In this document: positions 1,952-64,000 of the stretch, piece by piece
Layout: each line of letters begins with the position of its first letter
Numbering within the stretch: position 1 is the first letter of the stretch
DNA from: Agreia sp. Leaf283
Lineage (GTDB): Bacteria > Actinomycetota > Actinomycetes > Actinomycetales > Microbacteriaceae
NCBI RefSeq assembly: GCF_001422485.1
Contig: NZ_LMNF01000001.1
Coordinates: 1,215,050-1,279,049, forward strand
Direction of reading: 5' to 3'
Length of the DNA stretch: 64,000 bases
Notes under the pieces: model-generated
What the model was told of the DNA's origin: nothing
Databases searched by the model: none
What the model saw: the letters and a program-made list of their open reading frames with translations, nothing else
Made by a program: the position numbers and the translations under genes

Positions 1952-3082
1952 ATGACCACCACGACGACCGCGACCGCGATGCGTCTCACCCGCCAGCAGC
2001 GAGAGCTCATCGCCCGGTCGGTCGCCGACGGGGAGGCGGCCGACCCGTCGGCTCTCCTGCGACGTGCCGTGCTCGAGACGGCGACGGGCTCGATCACCCG
2101 CCTGCCGATGCCGGCCACCAGCCGTCGGGAGAGCTCATGGCGTGAGGCGCTGCTCGACGGGCCGCCGGCCGCCCCGGGTGCCGAGCGCGTTCTGCTCGAG
2201 GAGTTCGTGCTCGAGCCCGGCACCGGAAAGGCGATCGAGCTGCGCGCCGGCGAGATCCTGCGCCTCGAGCAGATCGCGGGATCGCAGTGCCTCGACTTCA
2301 ATGCCTTCAGCCTCGACGACTACCGCGAGGCCTTCCACTGCGGACGAACGAGAACGCTTCACGGGATCAACCCCACCACCGGCGACTTCCTCTGGTCGGC
2401 GCCGCCGCGCGAGCGAGCGATGCTCTTCATCCTGAGCGACAGCGTGCACTGCAACGACGTGCTCTTCCCCCGGTGCAGCGCGAACATGTACGAGTCGGTG
2501 CACGGCTTCCGTGAGCACACCAACTGCGCAGACATCCAGGCGGAGGCGCAGCGCGAGTACGGGCTCACTCCCGACGACGTGCACGACTCGTTCAACATCT
2601 TCATGGCGACCGAGGTGGTCGACGGGCAGCAGCGCATCCGCAGGCAGGACACCGCCCCCGGCGACCATATCGAGCTGCTCGCGGTCATGGATGTGCTGGC
2701 CGTGCCGAACATCTGCGGCTCCGACGTGCAGCCCACCAGCAACTTCTCGCTGAAACCGGTGCGAGTGCAGAGGTTCCGCGCGTCGATCGCCGACCTCGAC
2801 GCCGTGCCGACCATCTACGAATACGACTCGCAGCGCACACCGGCACAGTTCGCGCAGCCCGCCATCCGAACCGAGCGGCGCCTGACCCGCGACCCTCAGT
2901 ACCGGCCCGCCTTCGCGGGGCTGCCGATCGGCGTCGAGGCGGTGCAGATCGAGCTCGACGACGAGACGGCCGCGGCCTTCGACGAGCTGTGGCGAGGCGG
3001 GCTCACGACCCGCTACGCAGAGCGGGGCGACGGCCTGCGCGACGTGCTGTTCTCGTGGTGGATGGCCTCCCATGAGCGCTGA
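1952..3082 (+). CDS. DUF1989 (urea carboxylase-associated) family protein
   Basis: The protein has 376 residues. The DUF1989 domain occupies about residues 85-320, with the family landmarks of an Asp-Phe-Asn near GSQCLDFNAF, the paired acidic/His region ILSDSVHCNDVLFP, and a Cys plus DVHDSFNIF stretch. DUF1989 proteins include the two subunits of carboxyguanidine deiminase and other urea-carboxylase-associated proteins, so C-N hydrolysis of a guanidine- or urea-like compound is plausible. No urea carboxylase, allophanate hydrolase or second DUF1989 subunit is nearby, and the protein has an extra N-terminal region of about 80 residues. The start has a good ribosome site (AGGAGA at about 1941). 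Its last bases overlap the flavin reductase start by 11 bp, so they are translationally coupled. Confidence 0.85.
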   Translation: MTTTTTATAMRLTRQQRELIARSVADGEAADPSALLRRAVLETATGSITRLPMPATSRRESSWREALLDGPPAAPGAERVLLEEFVLEPGTGKAIELRAGEILRLEQIAGSQCLDFNAFSLDDYREAFHCGRTRTLHGINPTTGDFLWSAPPRERAMLFILSDSVHCNDVLFPRCSANMYESVHGFREHTNCADIQAEAQREYGLTPDDVHDSFNIFMATEVVDGQQRIRRQDTAPGDHIELLAVMDVLAVPNICGSDVQPTSNFSLKPVRVQRFRASIADLDAVPTIYEYDSQRTPAQFAQPAIRTERRLTRDPQYRPAFAGLPIGVEAVQIELDDETAAAFDELWRGGLTTRYAERGDGLRDVLFSWWMASHER

Positions 3083-3749
3083 TCTGACGAACAGCGCCGA
3101 TCTGGAGAATGCCGTGGCCGGCAGCGCGCAGGACATCGACTTCGAGACGCTCGGCGAATACGAGCGCTACAAGCTGATGGCGAGCCTGATCGTGCCCCGG
3201 CCGATCGCGCTCGTGACCACGCTCGACGAGGGCGGGGTCGTGAACGCCGCGCCCTTCAGCATGTTCTGCATGCTCGGCGAGGAGCCCCCGCTGCTGCTCG
3301 TCAGCCTCAACAGGCTCGCCGGGGGAGCGCAGAAGGACACCGCCCGCAACATCGATCGCACGGGCGAGTTCGTGGTGCACATGGTCGACGAGCCGCTCGC
3401 CGAGGCCGCCGATCGTTGTGGCGAGCGCCTGCCCGCCGGCGTCAGCGAGCTCGACGCCGTCGGCCTGGCCGGCATGCCGTCGCGCCTCGTCGGCCCGCCC
3501 ACCATCGCCGCGGCGCCCGTCGCCTTCGAATGCGTGCTGCACGAGAAGCTCGACACCGCGAGCCGCGAGATCTTCATCGGCCGCATCGTGTCACTGCACA
3601 CCCGCGATCAGCTGATCGACACGGATTCCTGGCGGGTGCACCTGCACGATTACGCGCCGGTCGCCCGATTCGGCGCCAGTTTCTACACCACCACCCGTGA
3701 CCGTTTCGCGATCGGAGCCAGCGAGACCGCGATCGACACCCTCGCCTGA
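3072..3749 (+). CDS. Flavin reductase-like FMN-binding protein
   Basis: This 225-residue protein has a flavin reductase / FMN-binding split barrel. The region ERYKLMASLIVPRPIALVTT (about residues 31-50) is the typical entry into the domain, followed by NAAPFSMFCMLGEEPPLLLVS. Proteins of this group reduce FMN with NAD(P)H for partner monooxygenases or bind FMN for other redox work. It starts inside the end of the DUF1989 gene and is followed after 49 bp by an ABC lipoprotein gene, so the three form one operon under the divergent GntR gene. No flavin-dependent monooxygenase is present here, so the electron acceptor is unknown. Confidence 0.87.
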   Translation: MSADLTNSADLENAVAGSAQDIDFETLGEYERYKLMASLIVPRPIALVTTLDEGGVVNAAPFSMFCMLGEEPPLLLVSLNRLAGGAQKDTARNIDRTGEFVVHMVDEPLAEAADRCGERLPAGVSELDAVGLAGMPSRLVGPPTIAAAPVAFECVLHEKLDTASREIFIGRIVSLHTRDQLIDTDSWRVHLHDYAPVARFGASFYTTTRDRFAIGASETAIDTLA

Positions 3750-47903: not shown

Positions 47904-48030
47904 CCGAGCTCGCCGCGCTCCTCTCCTCCACAGCCCCCGTTCCGGCCAAGTTATCCACACCCATATCCCCTGATCAAGCATCGAATGCCACCGTCGACCC
48001 AATGTCGGTGGCTACTGTTTGACTTCTCGT

Positions 48031-49668
48031 ATGGACCTCCTCGACGCATCCCTCGGCGATATCGCCGAGCGCCTTCGTGAGCTCCTCGACGAGAACCGCG
48101 CAGCCGTGAACACCGGTGCCGGGTCGGGTGCCGATTCCGGTGACGCGCTGCTCGAGGCAGCCCACGCCTGGGAGGCGATCGGTCGTGCCGGCGATGCAGC
48201 CCGAACCTGGGTCGCTGCCGAAGTCGCGCACGACTCCCGCCGCGAACTCGACACCGCCGGTCTCGCCTACCGTCACGGGTTCGCGTCAGCGAAGAAGCTC
48301 CTTGCCGCGACCACGAACATCTCGGAGCGCACCGCGGCGACCCGCATCAGTCTTGGCCAGCGGCTGCGGTCATCGATCTCGATCTCGGGAACCCCGAATC
48401 CGAGTTTCTTCCCGGTCGTGGAGGCGGCGTTCTTCGCAGGTCAGGTCGGTGTGGATACGGCGGCGGTGATCTGCCGCACCCTGTCCGAGGTGGTGAACCG
48501 TACCGGCTGGTCGGATGCCACCGACCGGGCCGAACGACACCTGGTCGCCGCCGCGATCGCCACCGTCGCAGATGCCGCCATCGATGCCGACGCCGATTCC
48601 GACGCGGATACGGGCGTCGAAGAGAGCGACGGCACAGACGGCGCGGACGCGTTCTGGAGGGTACCGAGGCGGTACACGGTCGAGGAGATCGGCCGGCTCG
48701 CGATCCGGATCCGGGAACACCTCGACCCCGACGGAGCCGAACCCCGCGACGCCGCAAAACAGTCGCTTCGTGGGTTCAGCTACCCGAAAGTCGGCGCAGA
48801 CGGTATGGCCCGAGGCAGATACGCACTCCCACCGCTGCAACTGGGCGTGTTCCTGGCCGCGGTCGACTCCGTCCTCAGCCCGCGCACGCCCGACACATCG
48901 AATCCTTCACCTCACACGGCAAGCCAGGACGCGACCGATCTCGGTCACACAGGTGCAGGCATCACCGAAAATCAGGGCATCGCCGGAGGCGAGGAAAACG
49001 GCCCGCTGACGAACGACCCGTCGCAACAGACGTCAGGAGCGAAGAGCGGCACCCCAGACGACCACACCATTGTCGACTCGCGCACGGCGGAGCAGAAGCT
49101 TCTCGACGCGGTCATGACCCTCCTCGAGCTGGCCGCTACCTCACCGTCCGTGTCGCTGCTGAACGGTGCGGCACCGACCGTGAACGTGCACGTCACCCTC
49201 GACGACCTCGAATCCGGGCGCGGTGCCGCGTGGATCGACGGCAGCACCGAACCGATCCCCATCAGCACCATCGACCAGCTTCGCTGCCATGGCGACACCA
49301 TCACCACCCTCTTCGGCCAGCACGGCGAGATCCTGCATCACGGCAAGACGAAACGTCTGGCCACCCGAAGGCAACGCAGAGCACTCGCCGCCCGCGACGG
49401 AGGATGCGTCATCCCCGGCTGCACCGCGCCACCGTCACGGTGTCAGGCGCACCACGTGACCCCGTGGGTGAGCGAGGACTATCCGCCCGGACGGACAGAC
49501 ATCGACAACCTCGCGTTGTTGTGTCCGTTCCACCACTCCACCATCCACACCTCGGCATGGCAACTCGTCATGATCCACGGCAAGCCGCATGTCAGACCAC
49601 CGAGCTGGCAAGATCCGAATCGAACACCCCGGCCCGCCGCGCACCAACGAACAGGCAGGCCATGGTGA
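48031..49668 (+). CDS. DUF222 / HNH endonuclease-motif protein (13E12 repeat family)
   Basis: The protein has 545 residues from ATG 48031. The N-terminal and middle parts are the DUF222 domain common in actinobacterial 13E12 proteins. The C-terminus has an HNH nuclease motif with zinc cysteines: GGCVIPGCTAPPSRCQAHHV, then the NLALLCPFHHSTIH ending (about residues 456-510). A variable low-complexity linker rich in Asp/Ser/Thr separates them. These genes are multi-copy in Microbacteriaceae and mycobacteria, and their function is not settled; mobile nuclease behaviour has been suggested. The gene is enclosed by short repeats on both sides. Confidence 0.9.
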   Translation: MDLLDASLGDIAERLRELLDENRAAVNTGAGSGADSGDALLEAAHAWEAIGRAGDAARTWVAAEVAHDSRRELDTAGLAYRHGFASAKKLLAATTNISERTAATRISLGQRLRSSISISGTPNPSFFPVVEAAFFAGQVGVDTAAVICRTLSEVVNRTGWSDATDRAERHLVAAAIATVADAAIDADADSDADTGVEESDGTDGADAFWRVPRRYTVEEIGRLAIRIREHLDPDGAEPRDAAKQSLRGFSYPKVGADGMARGRYALPPLQLGVFLAAVDSVLSPRTPDTSNPSPHTASQDATDLGHTGAGITENQGIAGGEENGPLTNDPSQQTSGAKSGTPDDHTIVDSRTAEQKLLDAVMTLLELAATSPSVSLLNGAAPTVNVHVTLDDLESGRGAAWIDGSTEPIPISTIDQLRCHGDTITTLFGQHGEILHHGKTKRLATRRQRRALAARDGGCVIPGCTAPPSRCQAHHVTPWVSEDYPPGRTDIDNLALLCPFHHSTIHTSAWQLVMIHGKPHVRPPSWQDPNRTPRPAAHQRTGRPW

Positions 49669-51363: not shown

Positions 51364-52578
51364 TCAGCGCGGCAGCTCTCCCGATACGACCTCGCCCTTC
51401 GAGACCACGGCCACGATGTTCGCGGTGTCGAGATCCGACAGGTTCTGCCAGGGCCGACCGCGCATCACGACGAAGTCGGCGAGCTGGCCGGCAGCGATCC
51501 GTCCGAGCTTCTGCTCGAGCCCCAACGCGCGACTCGCCCGCGACGTGGCCGCCTGCAGGGCCCGCTCCGGAGTCCAGCCGAAGACGCGCGCCATCAACCG
51601 CACCTCCGCCATCTGATCGCCGAACTTCACGTGGTGCCCATTGGCATCCGTGCCCAGCACGAAGTCGACCCCGAGATCGGCGGCCGCCCGCATGCCGGCA
51701 TCCCGCTTCTCGACCAGCTGCGCCGCTTTGTCGGCCTGCTCGGATGACACGCCGTTCTCGCCGGCGGCGATGCGGTCGTTGATGAGCAGGGTGGGCGCCA
51801 CGGTGATGCCGGCGGCGGCGATCCGGGACGCCTGCGCCTCGGTCAGCAGAGTGCCGTGCTCGATCGAGTCGACGCCCTCGTCGATGGCGACCTCGATGCC
51901 GTCAGCGGTATGTGCATGGGCCGCGACGCGCATTCCGAGCGCGTGGGCCTCGTCGACGATCACGGCGATCTCCGCCCGCGTGTAGTTGCGCCACGAACTC
52001 TTGTCGCCCACCGAGAGAACCCCGCCGCTCGTCGCGATCTTCACCCCGTCGGCACCGGCCCTGGCGAAGTGCCGCACAAGCTGGCGGCACTGATCGGGGC
52101 CGTCGGCCAGGGGCTTGCGCTGCGTGAAGGCGGGCGGAATGAACAGGTCGCCGTGGCCGGCGGTCATGCTCACCATGCCGTGGGCCTGCATGCGGGGCCC
52201 GGTCACGACGCCCGCGTCGATCGCGCGACGCATCGAGAACTGGATGTCGTCGGCCGACAGATCGCGGATCGTCGTGACGCCGCCGCGCATCGCCGTGAGG
52301 GCGTTCGACAGGCCGTGCAGCGTCTGTTCCTCGACCCGCGTCATCAGTGGCCAGGTGAGGAAGTCGGCGGTGCCCGGCCCGGCATAGCCGACGATGTGCA
52401 CATGAGTGTCGATGAGCCCGGGGATCACGCTGAACTCGGGGGTCTCCTCACCGGCGGCGGCCGGGCGCGAGGGTTCTTCGAAGACGGCGTCGGCGCCCGA
52501 TCGGGACCAGCTCAGAGAGCGGATGCCCGCATCGGTGGTGCCGTCCCAGAGGGCCACGGCGGGAAGGTGCTGGTTCAT
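51364..52578 (-). CDS. Amidohydrolase family protein (imidazolonepropionase/prolidase-like group)
   Basis: This 404-residue metal-dependent hydrolase of the amidohydrolase superfamily has the metal HxH in LIDTHVHIVGY, a Lys in GADGVKIATSGG (carbamylated ligand position), His ligands in AAHAHT and IEHGTLL, and the final Asp in LGTDANGHH. Relatives hydrolyse dipeptides, imidazolones and cyclic amides. It is the last gene of the nucleoside-type importer operon, 45 bp after the permease, so it likely acts on the imported compound or a metabolite of it. Confidence 0.88.
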   Translation of the reverse strand: MNQHLPAVALWDGTTDAGIRSLSWSRSGADAVFEEPSRPAAAGEETPEFSVIPGLIDTHVHIVGYAGPGTADFLTWPLMTRVEEQTLHGLSNALTAMRGGVTTIRDLSADDIQFSMRRAIDAGVVTGPRMQAHGMVSMTAGHGDLFIPPAFTQRKPLADGPDQCRQLVRHFARAGADGVKIATSGGVLSVGDKSSWRNYTRAEIAVIVDEAHALGMRVAAHAHTADGIEVAIDEGVDSIEHGTLLTEAQASRIAAAGITVAPTLLINDRIAAGENGVSSEQADKAAQLVEKRDAGMRAAADLGVDFVLGTDANGHHVKFGDQMAEVRLMARVFGWTPERALQAATSRASRALGLEQKLGRIAAGQLADFVVMRGRPWQNLSDLDTANIVAVVSKGEVVSGELPR

Positions 52579-52623: not shown

Positions 52624-53934
52624 TCAGCCGCGCGAGTTTTTACGCGGGAACAGGTGGCCGAGCGCGGCCGGCGGTCGCATCGTTGTTCCCGCGACCACGA
52701 GCACGGCCAGGGTCACGAGGTAGGGCGCGGCGGTCGGCAGCTCGCTGGGAAGCGGCACGAACACGAAAACGAGCACGAGGGCGATGCCGAGCAGGAGCGG
52801 CGCGAGTCCTCCCCGGCGCTTGCCCGCGAACATCCGGCTGAGACCGATCGCCACGAAGACGATCGCCAGGATGAAGAGCAGCGCCTTGAACGTCTCCGGC
52901 CTTCCGAGCCCGACGGCGTCGCTGAAGCCGAACAGGCTCGACCCCAGGAAGACGCCCGACGGCATCCAGTTGCCGAAAATGAGCGTCGCGAGGCCGATGA
53001 ATCCTCTGCCGGCCGTCTGGTTCTCGACGTACGCCTGCGAGATGAGGGCGAGATAGCCGCCCGCGAATCCGGCGAGGCCGCTGCCCACGAGAACCGCCAC
53101 CCAGCGGGTTCGGTGAACGCTGCCTCCGAGGGCCTGCAGTGCGGCGGGCTGCTCGCCCGCAGCCCGCCAGCGCAGCCCGAACGGAGTGCGCCACAGGATG
53201 TATGCCGTCGCGGGAATGAGGAGCAGACCGATGATCGCGGCGAGTGAGACGTCGCGCGTGAGTCCACCCACGATGCCGCCCAGCTGGGTGATCACGGGGA
53301 TGCCCGACGCCTCCATGGCGCGAGTCGCATCAGGGGTGCCGAATCCTCCTGAGAGGAAGGGGATGCCGATGTTCGGCAACGAGCCGTCGATGCGCGGTGA
53401 CCGCGAGATCGTGCCGCCGTCGACCCCGTTGAACACGATGTCCGACATGAAACGGGCGAGCGCCGCGGCGACGACGTTGATGGAGACACCGACGATGAGC
53501 TGGTTGAGTCCCATCTCGATGCAGAGCACGGCCATCAGCAGGCCGAAGACGAGACCGCCCACGATTCCTCCGCCGAGCGCCGCCCACGGCCCCCAGAACC
53601 AGCCGAAGATGCCGGCCATCCAGGTGCCGCCGATCATCATGCCCTCGAGGCCGACGTTGATGATGCCCGCCCGTTCGGAGTACAGGCCGCCGATGGCGAC
53701 GACCGCGATCGGCACGGTCAGGCGCAGGGCCGAACCCCAGGTGGATGACGCCGAGATCCCGGGGGCGTCGGCCACGTACTGCGCCACGACGATCAGCGCG
53801 AAACCGAGAAGGCTCCAGCGCAGGGCCATGCGGAGGGTGCGCCGACTGGGCGCGAGCGAGCGCGGAGCGGCGGCGACGGTCTTCGTCGCGCCGTCGACGG
53901 TCAGGCCGGCGGCGGCCCCACTGCTGTCGGTCAT
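52624..53934 (-). CDS. Nucleoside-type ABC transporter permease, NupQ-like
   Basis: The protein has 436 residues from ATG 53934, with many spans, belonging to the BPD_transp_2 family. The motif LYSERAGIINVGLEGMMIGG is diagnostic of the permeases that pair with BMP-type nucleoside binding proteins. The C-terminus has two additional hydrophobic segments after the usual end. Its ATG overlaps the stop of the first permease gene by 4 bp. Confidence 0.92.
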   Translation of the reverse strand: MTDSSGAAAGLTVDGATKTVAAAPRSLAPSRRTLRMALRWSLLGFALIVVAQYVADAPGISASSTWGSALRLTVPIAVVAIGGLYSERAGIINVGLEGMMIGGTWMAGIFGWFWGPWAALGGGIVGGLVFGLLMAVLCIEMGLNQLIVGVSINVVAAALARFMSDIVFNGVDGGTISRSPRIDGSLPNIGIPFLSGGFGTPDATRAMEASGIPVITQLGGIVGGLTRDVSLAAIIGLLLIPATAYILWRTPFGLRWRAAGEQPAALQALGGSVHRTRWVAVLVGSGLAGFAGGYLALISQAYVENQTAGRGFIGLATLIFGNWMPSGVFLGSSLFGFSDAVGLGRPETFKALLFILAIVFVAIGLSRMFAGKRRGGLAPLLLGIALVLVFVFVPLPSELPTAAPYLVTLAVLVVAGTTMRPPAALGHLFPRKNSRG

Positions 53935-55028
53935 GAGGATGCCTCCACGGTCTGTGCGCCTGCCCTGCGTCGGCTGCGGATCGCGTTCCACAGAGCGAGC
54001 CGGCGATCGGCCTTGTCGGTGAACCAGTAGCCGATGGCGCTCGAGAGCAGGATCACGGCCATGAACACGGAGCCGACCTCGGTGGGAAGCTGAACGAGGC
54101 CGAGCACCTGCGAGCTGCGCTCGACGAACGCGAGCACGAAGGCGCCCACAGCGACGCCTATCGGATGCGATCGGCCGAGCAGGGCGGCGGCGAGACCGGT
54201 GAACATCAGGTCGGTCGGCAGGGTGCCGTCGAAGCGGAAGGCGACGCCGAGCACATGCGGAAGACCGACCAGCCCGGCGATCGCACCGGATCCGAGCATC
54301 GCCCAGATGATGCGCCGGTTCACCTTGATGCCGGCCGATTCCGCCGCCTCAGGAGACTTCGACGCCACCTGCAGGGTGAACCCGAACGTCGTGCGGTACT
54401 GGATCAGGTAGAAGACGATGCCCACGACGATGGCCAGAACGAGGAAGCCCGAGATCGACGTGCGGTTGCCGATGCCCAGGTCGACGAGCGCGGGCATCGC
54501 CCCGTCGGCGCCGATGATGGCCGTGCCCGTGTTCTGCCCTCCGCCCGAGCGGAAGACGTTGGCGAGCAGAATGGCGACGACCGTGGTCGCGATGGCGTTC
54601 ATGAGGATCGAGGTGATGACCTCGCTGACCCCGCGGTACACGCGGAGCAGCGCCGGAACCAGGGCCCAGAGAGCGCCGACCAGGCAGCACACCAGCAGGG
54701 TGATCGGCAGTCGCAGATAGAGCGGAAGGGGCAGATTGGCCGCGACCACCGCGCCGGCCAGCGCGGCGACCCGGTACTGGCCGTCGACACCGATGTTGAA
54801 CAGACCCATGCGCAGGGCGAAGGCCGCCGCGATGCCGGCGAGGTAGAGCGGCACCGCATTGTTGAGGGCCGATACGAGCGAGGCCGGCTCGATGCCGTAG
54901 TTCCACATGACCTCGTAGGCGCTGGCGGCCGAGTAGCCGCCGAAGGTGAGGAAGAGCGTGGTCACGAGCAGTGCCAGCAGCACCGATACGACGGGGCCGG
55001 CAATCGTGAGCAGGATGCGCCGCGTCAT
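53931..55028 (-). CDS. Nucleoside-type ABC transporter permease, NupP-like
   Basis: This 365-residue BPD_transp_2 permease has about ten spans. It has the AFALRMGLFNIGVDGQYRVA motif corresponding to the ERAGIINVGLEG motif of its partner. Later it has GFTLQVASKSPEAAESAGIK and a LAAALLGRSHPIGVAVGAF stretch, all typical. Overlaps at both ends (4 bp) bind it into the importer operon. Confidence 0.92.
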   Translation of the reverse strand: MTRRILLTIAGPVVSVLLALLVTTLFLTFGGYSAASAYEVMWNYGIEPASLVSALNNAVPLYLAGIAAAFALRMGLFNIGVDGQYRVAALAGAVVAANLPLPLYLRLPITLLVCCLVGALWALVPALLRVYRGVSEVITSILMNAIATTVVAILLANVFRSGGGQNTGTAIIGADGAMPALVDLGIGNRTSISGFLVLAIVVGIVFYLIQYRTTFGFTLQVASKSPEAAESAGIKVNRRIIWAMLGSGAIAGLVGLPHVLGVAFRFDGTLPTDLMFTGLAAALLGRSHPIGVAVGAFVLAFVERSSQVLGLVQLPTEVGSVFMAVILLSSAIGYWFTDKADRRLALWNAIRSRRRAGAQTVEASS

Positions 55029-56557
55029 GCCGCCGCCTCTCCCTGGCGCCGCACGCCGGTCATGTATTCGCCCAGCTCCTGCGCATCCACGTCTGAGGGC
55101 AGGAGTTCGGCCACGATGCGGCCCTTGTAGAAGACGAGCAGGCGATCGGAGAGCGAGAGCAATTCGTCGAGGTCAGCCGAGATGAGAAGCATGCCGAGTC
55201 CGCGATCGCGGGCCGCGGTCAGTTCGGTCCAGACGGCCGACTGGGCGCCGATATCGACGCCGCGCGTGGGGTGGGCGGCGATGAGCACGTCGGGGGATGA
55301 GCCCAGTTCGCGCCCCACGATGAATTTCTGCTGGTTGCCGCCCGAGAGCGACGAGGCGAGGCTCGCGACGGAGCCGCCGCGCACGTCGAACTTCTCGATG
55401 ATCGAGGCGGCGGCCGCTGCGGCGCCGGAGCGGCTGAACCATGGGCCGCGTTTGATCGGAGCCCTCGAGTGGTAGCCGAGGGCGGCGTTCTCTCGTAGGG
55501 CCATCGACAGCACGAGACCGTCCTTGTGCCTGTCTTCGGGAATGTAGGCCATGCCGCGGGCGCGGCGCTGCTCGGTGGTGAGGGCGCTGATGTCGTGCCC
55601 GCCCAGCGACACGGTGCCGGTGCTGGCGGCACGGCCGAGAAGGGCGAGCAGCAGTTCGGACTGCCCATTGCCCTCGACACCGGCGATTCCGACGATCTCG
55701 CCGCTGTGCACGGCGAACGACACGTCGTCGAGCGCGGCGACCTCGCCGTCGAGGCCGACGCTGAGGTTGTCGGCGGAGAGCACGACGTCGTCGCCGGGCG
55801 GCAGGGAGCGGGGGCTCACCGACGGCATGGCGACCTTCACCATCAGCGAGGCGAGTTCGGCGGCGCTGGTCTCCGACGCGATGCGGTGCCCCACCACCTC
55901 GCCCGCCCGGATGACGGTGATCTCGTCGGCGAAGTCGAGCACCTCGTCGAGCTTGTGCGAGATGAAGATCACGGCGGCACCCTCGGCGGTGAACGCGCGC
56001 ATCGCCGCGAACAGCGACTGCGCCTCGCTCGGAACGAGCACCGCGGTCGGCTCATCGAGGATGATGATGCGGGCGTCGCGATAGAGCACCTTGAGGATCT
56101 CGACGCGCTGTCGGCCTCCCACGCCGAGCTCGCGCACGACGGCGTTCACGTCGACCGGGAAACCGTTCGTCGCGGCGAGTTCCTCGACGCTCCGACGGGC
56201 GGCCCGGCTGTCGAGCCGCAGGGCCGAGCCCGGCTCGTCGGCGAGCACCACGTTCTCCCACACGCTGAGCGCGTCGGCGAGCAGGAAGTGCTGGTGCACG
56301 ATGCCGATGCCGGCGCGCTGGGCGTCGCGGGGCGACGAGAACGTGCGAGGCTCGCCCGCGATCGTGATCGTGCCCTCATCGGGGTGCTCCTCACCGGCGA
56401 GGATCTTCATGAGGGTCGACTTGCCCGCACCGTTCTCTCCGACGATCGCGTGTACCGTGCCCGCTTTCACGGACAGGTCGATGCGGTCGTTGGCGGTGAA
56501 GGCGCCGAACCTCTTGACGATGCCCGTCAGGCGCACCAGCTCTTCCTGCTTCTGCAT
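55025..56557 (-). CDS. Double ABC ATPase of the nucleoside/sugar importer
   Basis: The protein has 510 residues with two fused ABC domains, as in RbsA/NupO. Domain 1 has Walker A GENGAGKST (about 37-45) and the family form of the signature (VGGRQRVEILKVL). In domain 2 the Walker A reads GVEGNGQSE, degenerate as is usual in this family, with signature SLSGGNQQKFIVGREL. It energises both permeases. Its ribosome site lies in an 18-bp tandem duplication. Confidence 0.93.
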   Translation of the reverse strand: MQKQEELVRLTGIVKRFGAFTANDRIDLSVKAGTVHAIVGENGAGKSTLMKILAGEEHPDEGTITIAGEPRTFSSPRDAQRAGIGIVHQHFLLADALSVWENVVLADEPGSALRLDSRAARRSVEELAATNGFPVDVNAVVRELGVGGRQRVEILKVLYRDARIIILDEPTAVLVPSEAQSLFAAMRAFTAEGAAVIFISHKLDEVLDFADEITVIRAGEVVGHRIASETSAAELASLMVKVAMPSVSPRSLPPGDDVVLSADNLSVGLDGEVAALDDVSFAVHSGEIVGIAGVEGNGQSELLLALLGRAASTGTVSLGGHDISALTTEQRRARGMAYIPEDRHKDGLVLSMALRENAALGYHSRAPIKRGPWFSRSGAAAAAASIIEKFDVRGGSVASLASSLSGGNQQKFIVGRELGSSPDVLIAAHPTRGVDIGAQSAVWTELTAARDRGLGMLLISADLDELLSLSDRLLVFYKGRIVAELLPSDVDAQELGEYMTGVRRQGEAAA

Positions 56558-57762: not shown

Positions 57763-58518
57763 ATGTCACGCGTCCTGCTCCTCGGAGAATCCTGGTTCGT
57801 CTATTCGGTTCACCAGAAGGGCTTCGACTCCTTTCACACCTCCGAGTTCACTCTGGGCGGGCAGGAGTTCGTCGCCGCCCTGCGCTCGGCGGGTCACGAC
57901 GTCACCCACATTCCGGCGCACGAGATCTCGACGCGCCTGCCCGCCGATGCCGAGGGCATCGCGGCGGTCGCCGATGTCGTCGTGATCTCCGACGTCGGAG
58001 CCAACACGTTCCAGCTCCCCCCGGCCACCTTCACCCGGTCCGAGGCACAGCCCGACCGCACGGAAGCCCTGCGCGAGTTCGTGCAGCTCGGCGGCGGCCT
58101 CCTCATGGTCGGCGGCTATCTCACGTTCTCCGGCATCGATGCGAAGGCGCGATGGGGGCGCACGCCGCTCGCCGAGGCGCTTCCCGTCGAGATCCTCGAT
58201 CGCGACGACCGGGTGGAGCTCCCGGCCGGCGCCGCGCCGCAGCTCGCCTACGCGCATCCCATCACCGACGGGCTCGACGAGCAGTGGCCCGAGCTGCTCG
58301 GCCTCAACGAGGTGACCACCCGGCCGGGCGCGGCGACGCTCGCGAGCTGCGCCGGGCATCCGTTGCTGGCCGTGGGAGGCTATGGCGCGGGTCGAAACGC
58401 CGCGTTCACCTCCGACCTCGCGCCGCACTGGGCGCCGCCCGCATTCCTGGGCTGGGCGGGCTATGCCCCGCTCTTCGACCGCACGATACGGTGGCTCGCG
58501 GGGGAGGAGATCGAATGA
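57763..58518 (+). CDS. GATase1-like (DUF1355, COG5426) protein
   Basis: The protein has 251 residues from ATG 57763, 8 bases after TATACA. It has the class I glutamine amidotransferase-like fold of PF07090: MSRVLLLGESWFVYSVHQKG, the AEGIAAVADVVVISDVGANT stretch and C-terminal APHWAPPAFLGWAGYAPLF. The nucleophilic Cys of true GATases is not in its usual place (GGGLLMVGGY), so glutaminase activity is doubtful. It is the first gene of a three-gene operon with an amidohydrolase and a creatininase-like protein (4-bp overlaps). Confidence 0.85.
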   Translation: MSRVLLLGESWFVYSVHQKGFDSFHTSEFTLGGQEFVAALRSAGHDVTHIPAHEISTRLPADAEGIAAVADVVVISDVGANTFQLPPATFTRSEAQPDRTEALREFVQLGGGLLMVGGYLTFSGIDAKARWGRTPLAEALPVEILDRDDRVELPAGAAPQLAYAHPITDGLDEQWPELLGLNEVTTRPGAATLASCAGHPLLAVGGYGAGRNAAFTSDLAPHWAPPAFLGWAGYAPLFDRTIRWLAGEEIE

Positions 58519-59960
58519 CGAACGAGCAGACGACCCAGGAAGCAGGGCGGGCACACGAGCAGCCCGTGCACACCATCATCACCGGGGCGACGGTTCTCAG
58601 TCGCACGACCCGGCCCGCCCCGAACTACACCGCGCTGCCGCGCACCGATGTCGCGGCGCGCGGAACGGCGACGTTCCTCGACGACCATGCCATCGGCATC
58701 CGGGGCAACACGATCGCGTGGGTGAAACCCAGCGTCGAGGTGACCCTGGCCGAGCGTGACGCGGCGACGACGCTCATCGACGGCCGAGGACACGTGGCCA
58801 TTCCCGGGCTCATGAACTCTCACACGCACTCGCCGATGACCATGTTCCGAGGCTCGGCCGAAGACGTGCCCACCAGCGAGTGGTTCAACGCCCACATCTG
58901 GCCGATGGAGGTCAACCTCACCGAGCGCGACGTGACCTTGGGCGCGCAGCTCGCCGTGGGGGAGATGCTGCTCGCCGGTGTCACGAGCTTCGCCGATCAC
59001 TACTTCTCGACAGACCGCATCGCCGAGGTCGTGGCCGAAAGCGGCGCGCGGGCACTTCTCGCCTCGACCTTCTTCTCGTCGCAGGGGGAGGAGGGGATCG
59101 AGCGGTCCGCGGCGTTCGCCGAGCGCTGGAACGGCGCCGCAGACGGCCGAATCACCACCGCGATGGGACCGCACGCGACCTACACGGTGAACGACGCCGA
59201 CCTCGAGAAGACGGCCGAGCACGCCCGCCGTCTCGGAGTGCGCACCCACATCCACGCGTCCGAGAGCCCCTCGCAGACCCGCTCGAGTCTCGACCGGCTC
59301 GGGGTCACGCCCATCCAGGTGCTGCACGACACCGGCATCCTCGAGACCGGGGCCATCATCGCGCACGGCGCGGGCATCATCGAAGACGACCTGCGCTGGC
59401 TCAGACCCTGGGCAGACCGGGTCGCGGTCGCCTCGTGCAGCAAGGTGTACCTGAAGCACGCGCAGTCAGGCGGCACGCCCGTGAAGACGCTGCACGATGC
59501 CGGCATCACCGTGGGGGTCGGCACCGATGGACCCGCCTCGCACAACACCCTCGACGTGCTCGAGAGCGTGCGTTTCCTCTCGATGGTGCAGAAGAACGTG
59601 CACAGCGACGCCACCTGGTTGACCTCGCAGCACGCCCTCGACCTGGCCACCCGGCAGAGCGCGCACGCGTTCGGGCTCGGCGACTCGCTGGGCGCGCTCC
59701 TGCCCGGCTACACGGCCGACATCGTGCTGATCGACACCTTGGTTCCGCACATGCAGCCCATGCACGACCTGGCCGCGGCGCTGGTGCTGAGCGTCAAGTC
59801 CTCCGACGTGCGCACGGTGCTCGTCGACGGCCGCGTCGTCGTGTCGGGTGGGCGGCTCACCACCATCGACGTCGCGAGCGTGGCCGACGAGCTGCAGCGC
59901 CGGGTGCCCGCCCTGCGCGACACCTCGCACGGCCGTTCGATCCAGGATTACGCGCCGTGA
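58515..59960 (+). CDS. Amidohydrolase, aromatic deaminase group (SAH/MTA deaminase or guanine-deaminase-like)
   Basis: This 481-residue protein of the TRZ/ATZ/SsnA-type cytosine-deaminase-like branch of the amidohydrolases has metal ligands in LMNSHTHSPMTMFRG (HxH), THIHASES, IAHGAGII and VGTDGPASHN. It has an N-terminal extension of about 25 residues. The C-terminus (SHGRSIQDYAP) is nearly the same as that of the amidohydrolase at 60808, so the two are paralogues. Likely reaction: hydrolytic deamination of a purine-like ring. The ATGA start overlaps the GATase stop. Confidence 0.87.
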   Translation: MTNEQTTQEAGRAHEQPVHTIITGATVLSRTTRPAPNYTALPRTDVAARGTATFLDDHAIGIRGNTIAWVKPSVEVTLAERDAATTLIDGRGHVAIPGLMNSHTHSPMTMFRGSAEDVPTSEWFNAHIWPMEVNLTERDVTLGAQLAVGEMLLAGVTSFADHYFSTDRIAEVVAESGARALLASTFFSSQGEEGIERSAAFAERWNGAADGRITTAMGPHATYTVNDADLEKTAEHARRLGVRTHIHASESPSQTRSSLDRLGVTPIQVLHDTGILETGAIIAHGAGIIEDDLRWLRPWADRVAVASCSKVYLKHAQSGGTPVKTLHDAGITVGVGTDGPASHNTLDVLESVRFLSMVQKNVHSDATWLTSQHALDLATRQSAHAFGLGDSLGALLPGYTADIVLIDTLVPHMQPMHDLAAALVLSVKSSDVRTVLVDGRVVVSGGRLTTIDVASVADELQRRVPALRDTSHGRSIQDYAP

Positions 59961-60700
59961 TCGAGGCGGCTCGCTCGACCTGGCCCGAGGTGGCCGCGCA
60001 TGTCTCCGCCACGTCGGGCGTCGCCATCCTGCCGTTCGGCGCGCTCGAGCAGCACGGCCCTCAGCTGCCCCTGTCGACCGACACCGCGACCGCCGAGGAG
60101 GTCGCACGGCGGCTGGCGACCCTGCTCGACGCCGTACTGCTGCCGCCGGTGCACTACGGCGAGACCTGGAACAACGCGGGCTACCCCGGAACCGTCTCGC
60201 TGTCGCCGGGAACCGTGACCGCGATCGCGAAGGACATCGGGGGCTCGCTCGTTCTCTCAGGGGTGCGCGCGCTCGTGATCGTGAACGGCGACTGGGGCAA
60301 CCGGGCGCCGCTCACACTCGCCGCCCGCGAACTCGTCGACGAGGGGGTCATCCCCGCCCTCGTTCTCGATTATCCCGGCATGGATGCCGCCATCGACGAG
60401 GTGCGCGAGTCGCGTCCGGCTGCTCCAGGGCTGAACCACGCCGAGGAGGTCGAGACCTCGATCATGCTGGCGATCGACCCGTCGACCGTGCATCCCGAGC
60501 GCTATGTCGCCGAGTACCCGGTGTTTCCGCCGGAGTTCGGAACCGTGCCGATGCAGCTGCACCCCTTCTCGCCGAGCGGCGTGTTCGGCGACCCGTCGGT
60601 TGCCACGGCCGCCAAGGGGGAGTACATCCTCGCCCGAACGGTCGAGGCCTCCCTCGAGGTGCTCGAGACTTTCCTGAGCACCCTCCCCCCGCGCCCCTAG
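59957..60700 (+). CDS. Creatininase-like protein with altered metal motif
   Basis: The protein has 247 residues from GTG 59957. It has the creatininase fold: LPFGALEQHGPQLPLSTDTA (Glu, His and Asp ligands present) and NHAEEVETSIML (Glu). The otherwise near-invariant NGHGGN reads NGDWGN, so a metal-binding His is replaced by Asp. Family members hydrolyse cyclic or linear amides (creatinine, formamidopyrimidine, mycofactocin precursor). Third gene of the operon, overlapping the amidohydrolase by 4 bp (GTGA). Confidence 0.87.
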   Translation: MIEAARSTWPEVAAHVSATSGVAILPFGALEQHGPQLPLSTDTATAEEVARRLATLLDAVLLPPVHYGETWNNAGYPGTVSLSPGTVTAIAKDIGGSLVLSGVRALVIVNGDWGNRAPLTLAARELVDEGVIPALVLDYPGMDAAIDEVRESRPAAPGLNHAEEVETSIMLAIDPSTVHPERYVAEYPVFPPEFGTVPMQLHPFSPSGVFGDPSVATAAKGEYILARTVEASLEVLETFLSTLPPRP

Positions 60701-60807: not shown

Positions 60808-62172
60808 TCAGGCGTCGTAGTTCTGGATACTCCTGCCGTGGCTTCTGTCGGTCAGGCGGGCCAGGCGCGGCTGGAGTTCGGCGACCACTGCCGGGATGTC
60901 GATGGTCAGCACCTTCCTGCCCCTCATCAGAACGCGACCGGCGACGATCGTGGTGTCGATGTCGTTAGAGCGGGCGCTGTACACGAGCATGTTGGCGTAG
61001 TCGTGGATCGGCTGGTTGCGCGGCTCCGACAGATCGACGAGCACGAGGTCGGCCTGGCACCCGGGGGCGAGGCGTCCGATGCTGTCGCCGAGCTGCACGG
61101 CCTTGGCGCTCTTGACCGTGGCATGTCCCAGCACCTGGCGCGAGGTCAGGTAGGTCTGGTCCCGTTCGAGCGCCTTCTGAGTAAGCGCCATGAACGTCAT
61201 GCTCTCCCACACGTCGAGCGTGTTGTTCGAGGCGGCCCCGTCGGTGGCGAGCCCAACGGGGATGCCGGCCGACTCGAGCAGGCGCACGGGTGTGGTGTCG
61301 GGCCCGTGCTTCAGGTAGCCCTTGGGCGCGCTGCCGATTCCGATGCTTCCGGTGGCAGCGAGGAACAGCGGCAGGTCCTCCGCCACGATGCCGATGCCGT
61401 GCGCGATGAGCAGCTTTCCGTCGAGCAGCCCCGCACGGCGGAGCGTCTCGATGGGGGTGTGGCCGAAGCGCTCGCGGCTGTGCTTCATCTGGTACCGCGC
61501 CTCCGAGGCGTGGATGTGCACGAGGAGGTCGTTGTCGCGGGCCGCCTCGGCGGTCTTCGCGAGATCGTCGTCGGTCACCGTGTAGGGAGCATGCGGCGCG
61601 AGGGCGGTGGTGATGCGGCCACCGGCGGCTCCACGGTAATCGAGCGCGAATTGCAGCGATCGCTCCAGCCCGGCCTCGCCGTCGGATGAGAAGTAGGTGG
61701 AGCCGAGCACCCCGCGCAGCCCGCTCTCATCGGTGACCCGGGCGATGGCATCCATGTTGAAGTAATGGTCGGCGAACGTGGTGACGCCGCTGCGGATCAT
61801 CTCGGCGGCCGCCAGCCTCGTGGCCAGCTCGACGTCGTCATCGGTGAGGTTGACCTCCATAGGCCAGATGAAGTCGTTGAACCACGTGTCTTCGGGAACG
61901 TCCTCGGCGGCTCCCCGGAACATCACCATGGGCGAGTGCGTGTGGCAGTTGATGAAGCCGGGCATCGCGAGCATTCCGGATGCGTCGATCGTCTCGAGCG
62001 CAGGGATGGGTCGCTCCGAGGGCGGCCGGGATTCGGAGATCGATTCGATGAGGCCGTCGCGCACGACGATGGTCTGGTTCTCGGCGAAGTCGACCTCGCC
62101 GAGATCGTTGTGCACGAGCACGACCGCGTTGGTGATGACGAGGTCGGCGGGGGCAGGCTGCGGATCGGTCAT
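60808..62172 (-). CDS. Amidohydrolase, aromatic deaminase group, second paralogue
   Basis: The protein has 454 residues from ATG 62172 (AAGGAG site 7 bases before). The metal ligands are in FINCHTHSPMVMFRG, LVHIHASEA, IAHGIGIV and LATDGAASNN. The pattern WFNDFIWPMEVNLT is shared with the paralogue at 58515. This group includes 5'-methylthioadenosine/S-adenosylhomocysteine deaminase and guanine deaminase-like enzymes. It follows deoD by 29 bp in one operon, which favours a purine substrate. Confidence 0.88.
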   Translation of the reverse strand: MTDPQPAPADLVITNAVVLVHNDLGEVDFAENQTIVVRDGLIESISESRPPSERPIPALETIDASGMLAMPGFINCHTHSPMVMFRGAAEDVPEDTWFNDFIWPMEVNLTDDDVELATRLAAAEMIRSGVTTFADHYFNMDAIARVTDESGLRGVLGSTYFSSDGEAGLERSLQFALDYRGAAGGRITTALAPHAPYTVTDDDLAKTAEAARDNDLLVHIHASEARYQMKHSRERFGHTPIETLRRAGLLDGKLLIAHGIGIVAEDLPLFLAATGSIGIGSAPKGYLKHGPDTTPVRLLESAGIPVGLATDGAASNNTLDVWESMTFMALTQKALERDQTYLTSRQVLGHATVKSAKAVQLGDSIGRLAPGCQADLVLVDLSEPRNQPIHDYANMLVYSARSNDIDTTIVAGRVLMRGRKVLTIDIPAVVAELQPRLARLTDRSHGRSIQNYDA

Positions 62173-62201
62173 GATCATGCTCCTTCGGTGCGCGGGCGGG
62201 G

Positions 62202-62900
62202 CTACTGGAGCGCGGCCAGCGCGAACGACACCATGTCGGCGAAGGTGGCCTCGCGTTCGGCAGCGGTCATCTCGGAGCCCGGCAGGTCGCTGATCGTGCC
62301 GACCATCAGGGCGTCGAACTTCTCTTTGATCGCCACAGCGTAGAGCCCCGCCGCCTCCATGTCGATGCCGATCGTGCCATAGGCGAGCAGCCTGTCGACG
62401 AGCTCGGCGTCGGGGTTGTAGAAGCTGTCGGTGGTGAACAGCGGGCCCACGTGGATGGTCTTGCCCGTCGCCTCGCCGTGCTCGACGGCTTTGCGCAGCA
62501 GCGGGAACGAGGGCGCGTGACTGAGCGTGACGCCGGGCACCCACTCCGCGGTCATGTTCGAGTTCGTGTGCGCGGCCGAGGCGGCGACCACATCGCCGAG
62601 CTTCAGATACGGGGCGATACCGCCGATGGTGCCGACCCGGATGATGCGGGTCACGTCGTAGAAGCGGGCCAGCTCGGTCGCATAGATCGCCATCGAGGGC
62701 ATGCCCATGCCCGAGGCGAGTACCGAGATCGGCTTTCCGTTGAAGGTCCCCGTGTAGCCGAGGATGCCGCGCACCTCGGTGACGAGCTGCGGATCGTCGA
62801 AGAAGGTCTCGGCGATGAGCTTGGCGCGGCGCGGATCGCCGGGCATCAGAACGTCAGGGGCGAAGGCTCCGGAGTCGGCGCCGATGTGGGGAGTGGCCAT
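62202..62900 (-). CDS. deoD: Purine nucleoside phosphorylase, DeoD type
   Basis: This 232-residue protein has the hexameric PNP layout: MATPHIGADSGAFAPDVLMP, GDPRRAKLIAETFF (phosphate-binding Arg), ASGMGMPSMAIYATEL, and GIDMEAAGLYAVA followed by ISDLPG with the catalytic Asp. It splits purine nucleosides to base and ribose-1-phosphate in the cytoplasm. It lies between the second ABC permease and an aromatic deaminase gene, which ties the island to purines. The ATG at 62900 gives the exact family N-terminus. Confidence 0.94.
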   Translation of the reverse strand: MATPHIGADSGAFAPDVLMPGDPRRAKLIAETFFDDPQLVTEVRGILGYTGTFNGKPISVLASGMGMPSMAIYATELARFYDVTRIIRVGTIGGIAPYLKLGDVVAASAAHTNSNMTAEWVPGVTLSHAPSFPLLRKAVEHGEATGKTIHVGPLFTTDSFYNPDAELVDRLLAYGTIGIDMEAAGLYAVAIKEKFDALMVGTISDLPGSEMTAAEREATFADMVSFALAALQ

Positions 62901-62977: not shown

Positions 62978-64000
62978 TCAGCCGAGCTGGGATGGTGCGT
63001 AACGCGACAGCACGGCGCGCTCGGCGGCGCTGACCAGGCTGTAGAAGACGAGAGAGACGGCGGTGAGGATCGCGGCCGCCGCCCACAGGCCCGTGTAGTC
63101 GGAGTGCGCGCGCGAACTCACGATCTCATGGCCGAGGCCGTCGCCGGTCGCGAGCCACTCCGCGAGCGTGGCGGCCAGCACCGCCGTGGGGGCCGCGATG
63201 CGCGCGGAGGCGAAGATCGCGGGCAGCGTGTAGGGCAGCTGCAGGCGCCACAGCGTGCTCCAGACCGAGGAGTCGTAGCTGCGCAGCAGGGTGAACGCGT
63301 CGGCGGGAACGCGCTTCAGCCCTCCCTGCGTGTTGGCCAGCGTGGGAAAGAAGGTGACGATGGCGGTGATGGCGACGACACCTCCTAGCCCGCGGCCCAG
63401 TGCGAGAATCAGCACCGGTGTGAGCACGATGATCGGAACCGAGCGCAGGGCGACGGCCACGGGTGTGAGCACACGCTCCACGATGGGAAAGAGCACGAAC
63501 GACACGGCAGCGGCAATGCCGATCACGAGCCCGGCGATGTAGCCGACCCCCGCGTGCACCAGGGTCACGCCGAGCGCGTCGAGCATCACGGCGCGGTTCT
63601 CGCCCGCGTCTTCGGCGGTGAACAGGTAGGTGTACACGTCGATGGGCGACTTGCCCACGAACGGCGACATGTCGAACACGATCAGATACGCCCACCACGC
63701 GGCAAGGATCACGAGGATCGATCCGACCGTCCAGGCCGCGGCGCGCAGGGCCCGGGTTCCGAGCGACCCGCGCACGGCCGGCGCCGCCTGCTGGGCGTTC
63801 GAGATCGTGGCCGACCACGGGGTGAGCCAGCGGCGCAGCAGGCCGAAGAGGCCGTAGGGCACGGCCGCCATCAGGGTCGCGATCACGGCGACCGACCACA
63901 CGCGGGCCAGATCGAGCGACATCAGGCCGTTGATGAGCAGCACGCCCAGACCGGCCTTCGCGCCGATGAACTCGCCGAAGATGGCGCCGAGCACGGCCGC
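62978..64000 (-). CDS. SsuC/TauC-like ABC permease with two fused permease domains, partial
   Basis: The gene continues beyond the right edge. The visible 341 codons hold the end of one BPD_transp_1 domain (GAIFGEFIGAKAGLGVLLIN near the edge) and a full second one (about the last 250 residues, with IVTFFPTLANTQGGLKRVPA in the EAA loop). Fused double permeases of this class occur in importers of sulfonates, pyrimidine precursors and riboflavin. It is upstream of deoD in the same direction (77-bp gap). Its binding protein and ATPase must lie outside the window. Confidence 0.9.
   Translation of the reverse strand, partial: AAVLGAIFGEFIGAKAGLGVLLINGLMSLDLARVWSVAVIATLMAAVPYGLFGLLRRWLTPWSATISNAQQAAPAVRGSLGTRALRAAAWTVGSILVILAAWWAYLIVFDMSPFVGKSPIDVYTYLFTAEDAGENRAVMLDALGVTLVHAGVGYIAGLVIGIAAAVSFVLFPIVERVLTPVAVALRSVPIIVLTPVLILALGRGLGGVVAITAIVTFFPTLANTQGGLKRVPADAFTLLRSYDSSVWSTLWRLQLPYTLPAIFASARIAAPTAVLAATLAEWLATGDGLGHEIVSSRAHSDYTGLWAAAAILTAVSLVFYSLVSAAERAVLSRYAPSQLG

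Follow-up and report, generated by a model that had tools for sequence, protein, structure and literature searches.

The gene CRN of Agreia sp. Leaf283, a creatininase-family protein encoded at positions 59957-60700 (forward strand, GTG start, 247 amino acids) of the 64,000-nucleotide stretch that we analysed (the window), carries Asp112 where all sampled relatives have a metal-ligand histidine, and this substitution is fixed in a clade in which it arose a single time. The genes of the clade lie in a nucleoside-catabolic context, and in the Microbacteriaceae searched they occur only in genomes that also encode one particular amidohydrolase, here called AH0. Found among nucleoside-breakdown genes and with Asp in place of His, CRN probably acts as an enzyme on a nucleoside-derived compound, by means of a rebuilt active site. 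The PF02633 family is already known; what is new is the Asp variant. From these observations we infer that Asp112 binds a metal, and we propose a reaction, a class of substrate and an order of steps below.

The CRN protein and its metal-site residues

CRN is a full-length match to PF02633 Creatininase (E 2.6e-62; 210.8 bits against a Pfam gathering cut-off of 31.3). Its AlphaFold2 model, built from 31 clade sequences, has a pLDDT of 94.8, and in a Foldseek search its best PDB matches are creatininase chains (TMq 0.78-0.85), which identifies the creatininase fold. The creatininase of Pseudomonas putida (PDB 1q3k, 1j2t, 3a6 series; TIGR04448) thus has the same fold, and it shares with CRN the Glu/His/Asp of the first motif, an aromatic residue after the His/Asp position, and the H...ETS motif; CRN differs from it by Asp for His and by Gly for Glu two residues on. 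Three more specific assignments were rejected on score: creatininase itself (TIGR04448, 122.9 bits, cut-off 235); MftE, the mycofactocin peptidase of the same Pfam family (TIGR03964, 118 bits, cut-off 172); and IolN, the 3-dehydro-scyllo-inosose hydrolase, likewise a family member (NF041098, 54.8 bits, far under the cut-off of 245). The window neighbours that were scanned include no mycofactocin genes.

The altered motif, NGDWGN, spans residues 110-115 (60284-60301, forward strand), with GAC as the codon of Asp112 (60290-60292). A phmmer alignment with creatininase 1q3k places NGDWGN over NGHYEN, and Asp112 therefore stands at the position of the creatininase His, which in that enzyme is a metal ligand and is followed by a Tyr that touches the substrate. 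CRN lacks the metal-binding His of NGHxxN, a feature that lies outside Pfam's definition of PF02633. The preliminary description of this DNA, made from the sequence alone, had read the motif as NGDWGN in place of NGHGGN, with Asp replacing a metal-binding His, and this is confirmed: position 112 is Asp in 33 of 33 rows of the clade (D-type), while all 80 other family members that we collected (H-type) have His there; the H-type set consists of relatives picked up through their similarity to the D clade (genome-search loci, plasmid matches from 4 of 411 records, and control stretches) and does not represent the family evenly.

The bulky Trp to which the same description drew attention is present in CRN and in 25 of the 33 D-type rows, but it is not invariant (Phe in 4, Tyr in 4), and true creatininase also has an aromatic residue, Tyr, at this site. 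What distinguishes the clade at position 113 is an aromatic residue in all rows, against mostly Gly (71/80) in the H-type rows; such a residue would suit a flat heterocycle. A second change had escaped the preliminary description. In the loop ETWNNAGYPGTV (residues 69-80; 60161-60196, forward strand), residue 73 is Asn, and throughout the clade this position is Asn, Thr or Met, whereas 74 of 80 H-type rows have His; His73 is thus missing clade-wide. Position 70 is Thr in every D-type row compared to Ser in 65/80 H-type rows, and Phe210 and Gly114 are both invariant in the clade (33/33 each), the latter where creatininase has the Glu of its HYE motif, second after the His.

Glu31, His33, Asp42, His161, Glu166, Thr167 and Ser168 are invariant in D-type and H-type rows alike, and the first metal motif, Glu-x-His plus Asp, is complete in 33/33 and 80/80 (Glu31, His33, Asp42). 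The expectation that the remaining ligands are retained thus holds for these three; the second Glu that had been listed with them, if it is Glu164, is present in 33/33 of the clade but in only 48/80 H-type rows, which makes its role as a general ligand uncertain. Judged from the aligned sequences, the net change of the site in the clade is the loss of two conserved histidines and the gain of one carboxylate and one aromatic residue. Asp often serves as a metal ligand, and the earlier suggestion that CRN differs in its metal preference or its reaction is a fair prediction. The exchange of a metal ligand throughout the clade, at a position where every sampled relative keeps it, together with the loss of a second conserved His, likely marks a change of function, in a family with few tested members.

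Distribution, single origin and selection

D-type genes were found in 26 of 398 searched Microbacteriaceae genomes (29 genes in total), counted as matches above 180 bits with the motif read in each; a few candidates were scored per genome, so that misses are possible, and weaker matches were read in part (the one in genome G379 is H-type). Two metagenome bins labelled Actinomycetes (L061 and L062) also have a D-type gene; they came from a second search, whose loci lie partly in genomes already covered by the Microbacteriaceae search. Besides the window's own locus, all 29 loci fetched in a phylum-wide search of 396 genomes and all 24 fetched in a class-wide search of 394 genomes have His, three of the 24 being already counted in the phylum set. 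Among the genomes searched, the D clade is thus found mainly in the Microbacteriaceae, which are soil- and plant-associated bacteria. The source genome has four creatininase-family members, and the other three keep His.

We built a tree of 113 rows in which the D-type rows, 33 in number, group as one clade (support 100/98), and the change from His to Asp is a single event in 100% of 200 bootstrap trees. The tree leaves out matches of 175 or fewer query residues, those with stops or with gaps at position 112, repeats, and the D-type gene of genome G396 (L074, 7810-8530), which is split over two frames after approximately residue 175, by a frameshift or an assembly error. The closest rows outside the clade are four of H-type, whose motif reads SAHLGN or SGHLGN (joint branch 82/93).

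Among orthologues from named organisms, the best match to CRN comes from Agreia sp. PsM10 (93%); the nearest orthologue (genome G004) is 93% identical, with dN 0.037, dS 0.296 and dN/dS ~0.13. The preliminary description had allowed that CRN might be a decayed single copy, in which case homologues in the same operon should all have NGHGGN; all homologues in the same gene context instead carry NGD[WFY]GN, so that the motif is kept with the operon and the changed metal site is a feature of the clade. As Asp is fixed clade-wide and the gene is under purifying selection, we reject decay: Asp112 is a fixed, selected clade feature.

Nucleoside genes and the AH0 partner

Upstream of CRN and on the same strand are GAT1, a putative glutamine amidotransferase (PF07090; 57763-58518), and AH1, an amidohydrolase of the MTA/SAH/5'-deoxyadenosine deaminase group (COG0402 type; 58515-59960); GAT1 overlaps AH1, and the stop of AH1 overlaps the start of the CRN reading frame by 4 bases. 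A PF07090 gene of the GAT1 type is often seen just upstream of AH1 and CRN. Divergent from these three genes, on the reverse strand, is a complete BMP-type ABC transporter, consisting of a PnrA-like substrate-binding protein (PF02608; 56591-57634), an ATPase with two ABC domains (55025-56557) and two PF02653 permeases (53931-55028 and 52624-53991). AH0 (51364-52578, reverse strand), the constant partner of CRN, comes after the transporter; its nearest solved structures are the L-arginine carboxypeptidase Cc2672, another arginine carboxypeptidase and an Xaa-Pro dipeptidase. Downstream of CRN, also on the reverse strand, are AH2, a second amidohydrolase of the MTA/SAH deaminase group (60808-62178), a DeoD-type purine-nucleoside phosphorylase (62202-62900; PRK05819, 261.3 bits, cut-off 230) and the permease of a nitrate/taurine-type ABC transporter (62978-64000), which runs off the window; the ATPase of this transporter and an NMT1/THI5-like binding protein lie beyond it. 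Farther from CRN, the end of a reading frame at 48019-49668 looks HNH-like by eye, as in DUF222 proteins, and a DUF222/HNH protein adjoins the D-type gene of locus L075.

A BMP transporter or a nucleoside enzyme (adenosine deaminase, purine-nucleoside or thymidine phosphorylase, nucleoside hydrolase, or a cytidine-deaminase-like protein) lies within 7.5 kb at 26 of 30 D-type loci (the 29 Microbacteriaceae genes and L061) and at none of 25 H-type control loci; 26 controls had been planned, and one, L176, was dropped as it holds no family member. Four D-type loci (L071, L068, L181 and L182) have no nucleoside gene within this distance. AH0 lies within 7.5 kb at 17/30 D-type and 0/25 H-type loci, the window's own AH0 being just beyond this radius, and it is present in 26/26 D-type genomes compared to 46/398 overall. 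The p-values for the nucleoside context (Fisher, 1e-11) and for the presence of AH0 (hypergeometric, 1.3e-28) overstate the evidence, as related genomes are not independent. Nucleoside catabolism is the best-supported context for CRN, and what had been described as an operon of unknown substrate is narrowed accordingly.

AH0 is also encoded in a further 20 genomes, in which there is no D-type gene. CRN thus occurs only where AH0 does, while AH0 also works without CRN, and the simplest order of action would be CRN first and AH0 second. We also fetched 13 stretches with AH0 and without a nearby CRN, 11 from genomes without a D-type gene and 2 from D-type genomes; near AH0 they contain an adenosine-deaminase-like gene (6 stretches), an NMT1-type transporter (5), and peptide-transporter-type ATPases or binding protein (8). 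At loci such as L128 and L129, AH0 adjoins both an NMT1-type ABC transporter and an adenosine-deaminase-like gene, and L128 additionally has an acyl-CoA-dehydrogenase-like protein and an FMN monooxygenase near AH0; we regard loci of this type as a putative related heterocycle cluster. Together, the AH0 pairing and the nucleoside context take an uncharacterised creatininase-family protein to a short list of testable substrates.

Candidate reactions

The reading that we favour, tentatively, is that CRN is a working metal-dependent hydrolase whose rebuilt site opens a cyclic amide or ureide in nucleoside catabolism, upstream of AH0; among the reactions considered, this ring opening appears the most likely. 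The metal site would have been rebuilt once, in the clade ancestor, by exchange of the metal-ligand His for Asp, with loss of the second, nearby conserved His and fixation of an aromatic residue where creatininase has Tyr, leaving a site that is presumably carboxylate-rich and metal-bound. The nucleoside-type ABC transporter would import a purine-nucleoside-derived compound, possibly a modified nucleoside, on which CRN would open a cyclic amide or ureide; AH0 would then hydrolyse the open-chain product, and the ordinary nucleoside enzymes, deaminases and phosphorylase, would complete the breakdown. If the substrate is indeed a modified nucleoside, this would allow direct tests of RNA-modification catabolism, of which little is known. 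There is precedent in the family: cyclic amides are the substrates of creatininases, and a purine nucleotide with an opened ring is that of BrbF (PMC9478397). Among the literature matches listed, mostly covering open-access literature, there is no paper on the NGD clade.

The strongest competitor, less probable but to be taken seriously, is that CRN acts on the sugar part, on a lactone or keto-sugar from nucleoside ribose or a related sugar acid. This view draws on the four-row SAHLGN/SGHLGN sister group (82/93) and on IolN, which reportedly acts on an inositol-derived ketone. The four sisters, L114 (Alicyclobacillus), L116 (Listeria), L134 (genome G901) and L043 (genome G379), are the nearest H-type rows in the tree and 36-43% identical to CRN; three of them, L116 being the one that differs, also have its EYPxYP and xGVFGD stretches, but unlike CRN they all keep His112. 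The neighbours of L114, L116 and L134 are sugar genes (a phosphotriesterase-related protein and a KDGP aldolase in Alicyclobacillus and Listeria, a sugar-type ABC transporter and an FGGY kinase in G901), and those of L043 were identified in part. Because these nearest relatives are in sugar operons, a compound derived from a sugar may have been the ancestral substrate. Pfam scans of selected D-type neighbours, however, gave none of those sugar genes, and AH0, with which CRN is constantly paired, belongs with the amidohydrolases of carboxypeptidase/dipeptidase type.

It is also conceivable, though we consider it unlikely, that CRN deformylates a formamidopyrimidine-type (ring-opened purine) nucleoside. 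The model here is BrbF (SMc02977), a creatininase homologue that releases formate from a formylamino-pyrimidine ribonucleotide in riboflavin synthesis (PMC9478397), and the location of CRN in purine nucleoside clusters would fit such a role. BrbF is likened to CRN by description, and the gene neighbours reported for it, MarR and CobW (PMC9478397), are different and absent among the neighbours scanned; moreover, a deformylase would leave the dependence on AH0 unexplained.

A more specific proposal, which we consider a long shot, starts from cyclic t6A (ct6A), a tRNA-derived modified adenosine; the creatinine ring is similar to a hydantoin. By analogy, CRN might open the ct6A hydantoin to give t6A, from which AH0 could free threonine and carbon dioxide, leaving adenosine, which the deaminases and the phosphorylase encoded nearby could process. 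Consistent with this are the similarity to creatinine ring chemistry, the aromatic residue of the motif, the fact that genomes with CRN are a subset of those with AH0, and the carboxypeptidase-like relatives of AH0. Natural ct6A is described as a hydantoin in two sources (PMC13139853, PMC13244150), one of which also describes opening of its ring as a known chemical instability (PMC13244150). Possible support for the threonine step from genes after CRN, an aldolase-like gene directly behind it at L073 and an amidase at L067, L069 and L074, was set aside as insufficient (1 and 3 of 30 loci, respectively); at L126, an aldolase-like match lies ~9 kb from AH0. If true, the proposal would amount to a salvage pathway for threonylcarbamoyl nucleosides of decaying RNA.

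A route by which CRN and AH0 would together open the ring of xanthine or a different purine, bypassing xanthine dehydrogenase, is improbable. Purine-fermenting clostridia do open such rings without that enzyme, the context of CRN is purine-related, and it would be plausible chemistry for a cyclic-amide hydrolase to act first and a ureido-acid hydrolase second; but a xanthine-dehydrogenase-family protein is encoded elsewhere in 24/26 D-type genomes, which argues against a replacement of the usual purine route, and AH0 occurs in 20 genomes that lack a D-type gene. Equally improbable is that the change of a His universal among sampled relatives has left CRN catalytically dead, and possibly regulatory, given the invariance of Asp and of the other conserved site residues, the purifying selection and the frequent use of Asp as a metal ligand.

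On another contig of the source genome (C3, locus L157, approximately 2952-3740), a creatininase-family paralogue with NAHGGQ is accompanied by a xanthine-dehydrogenase-family protein, XdhC and amidohydrolases; judging by this cluster, purine breakdown may also involve a creatininase-like protein other than CRN.
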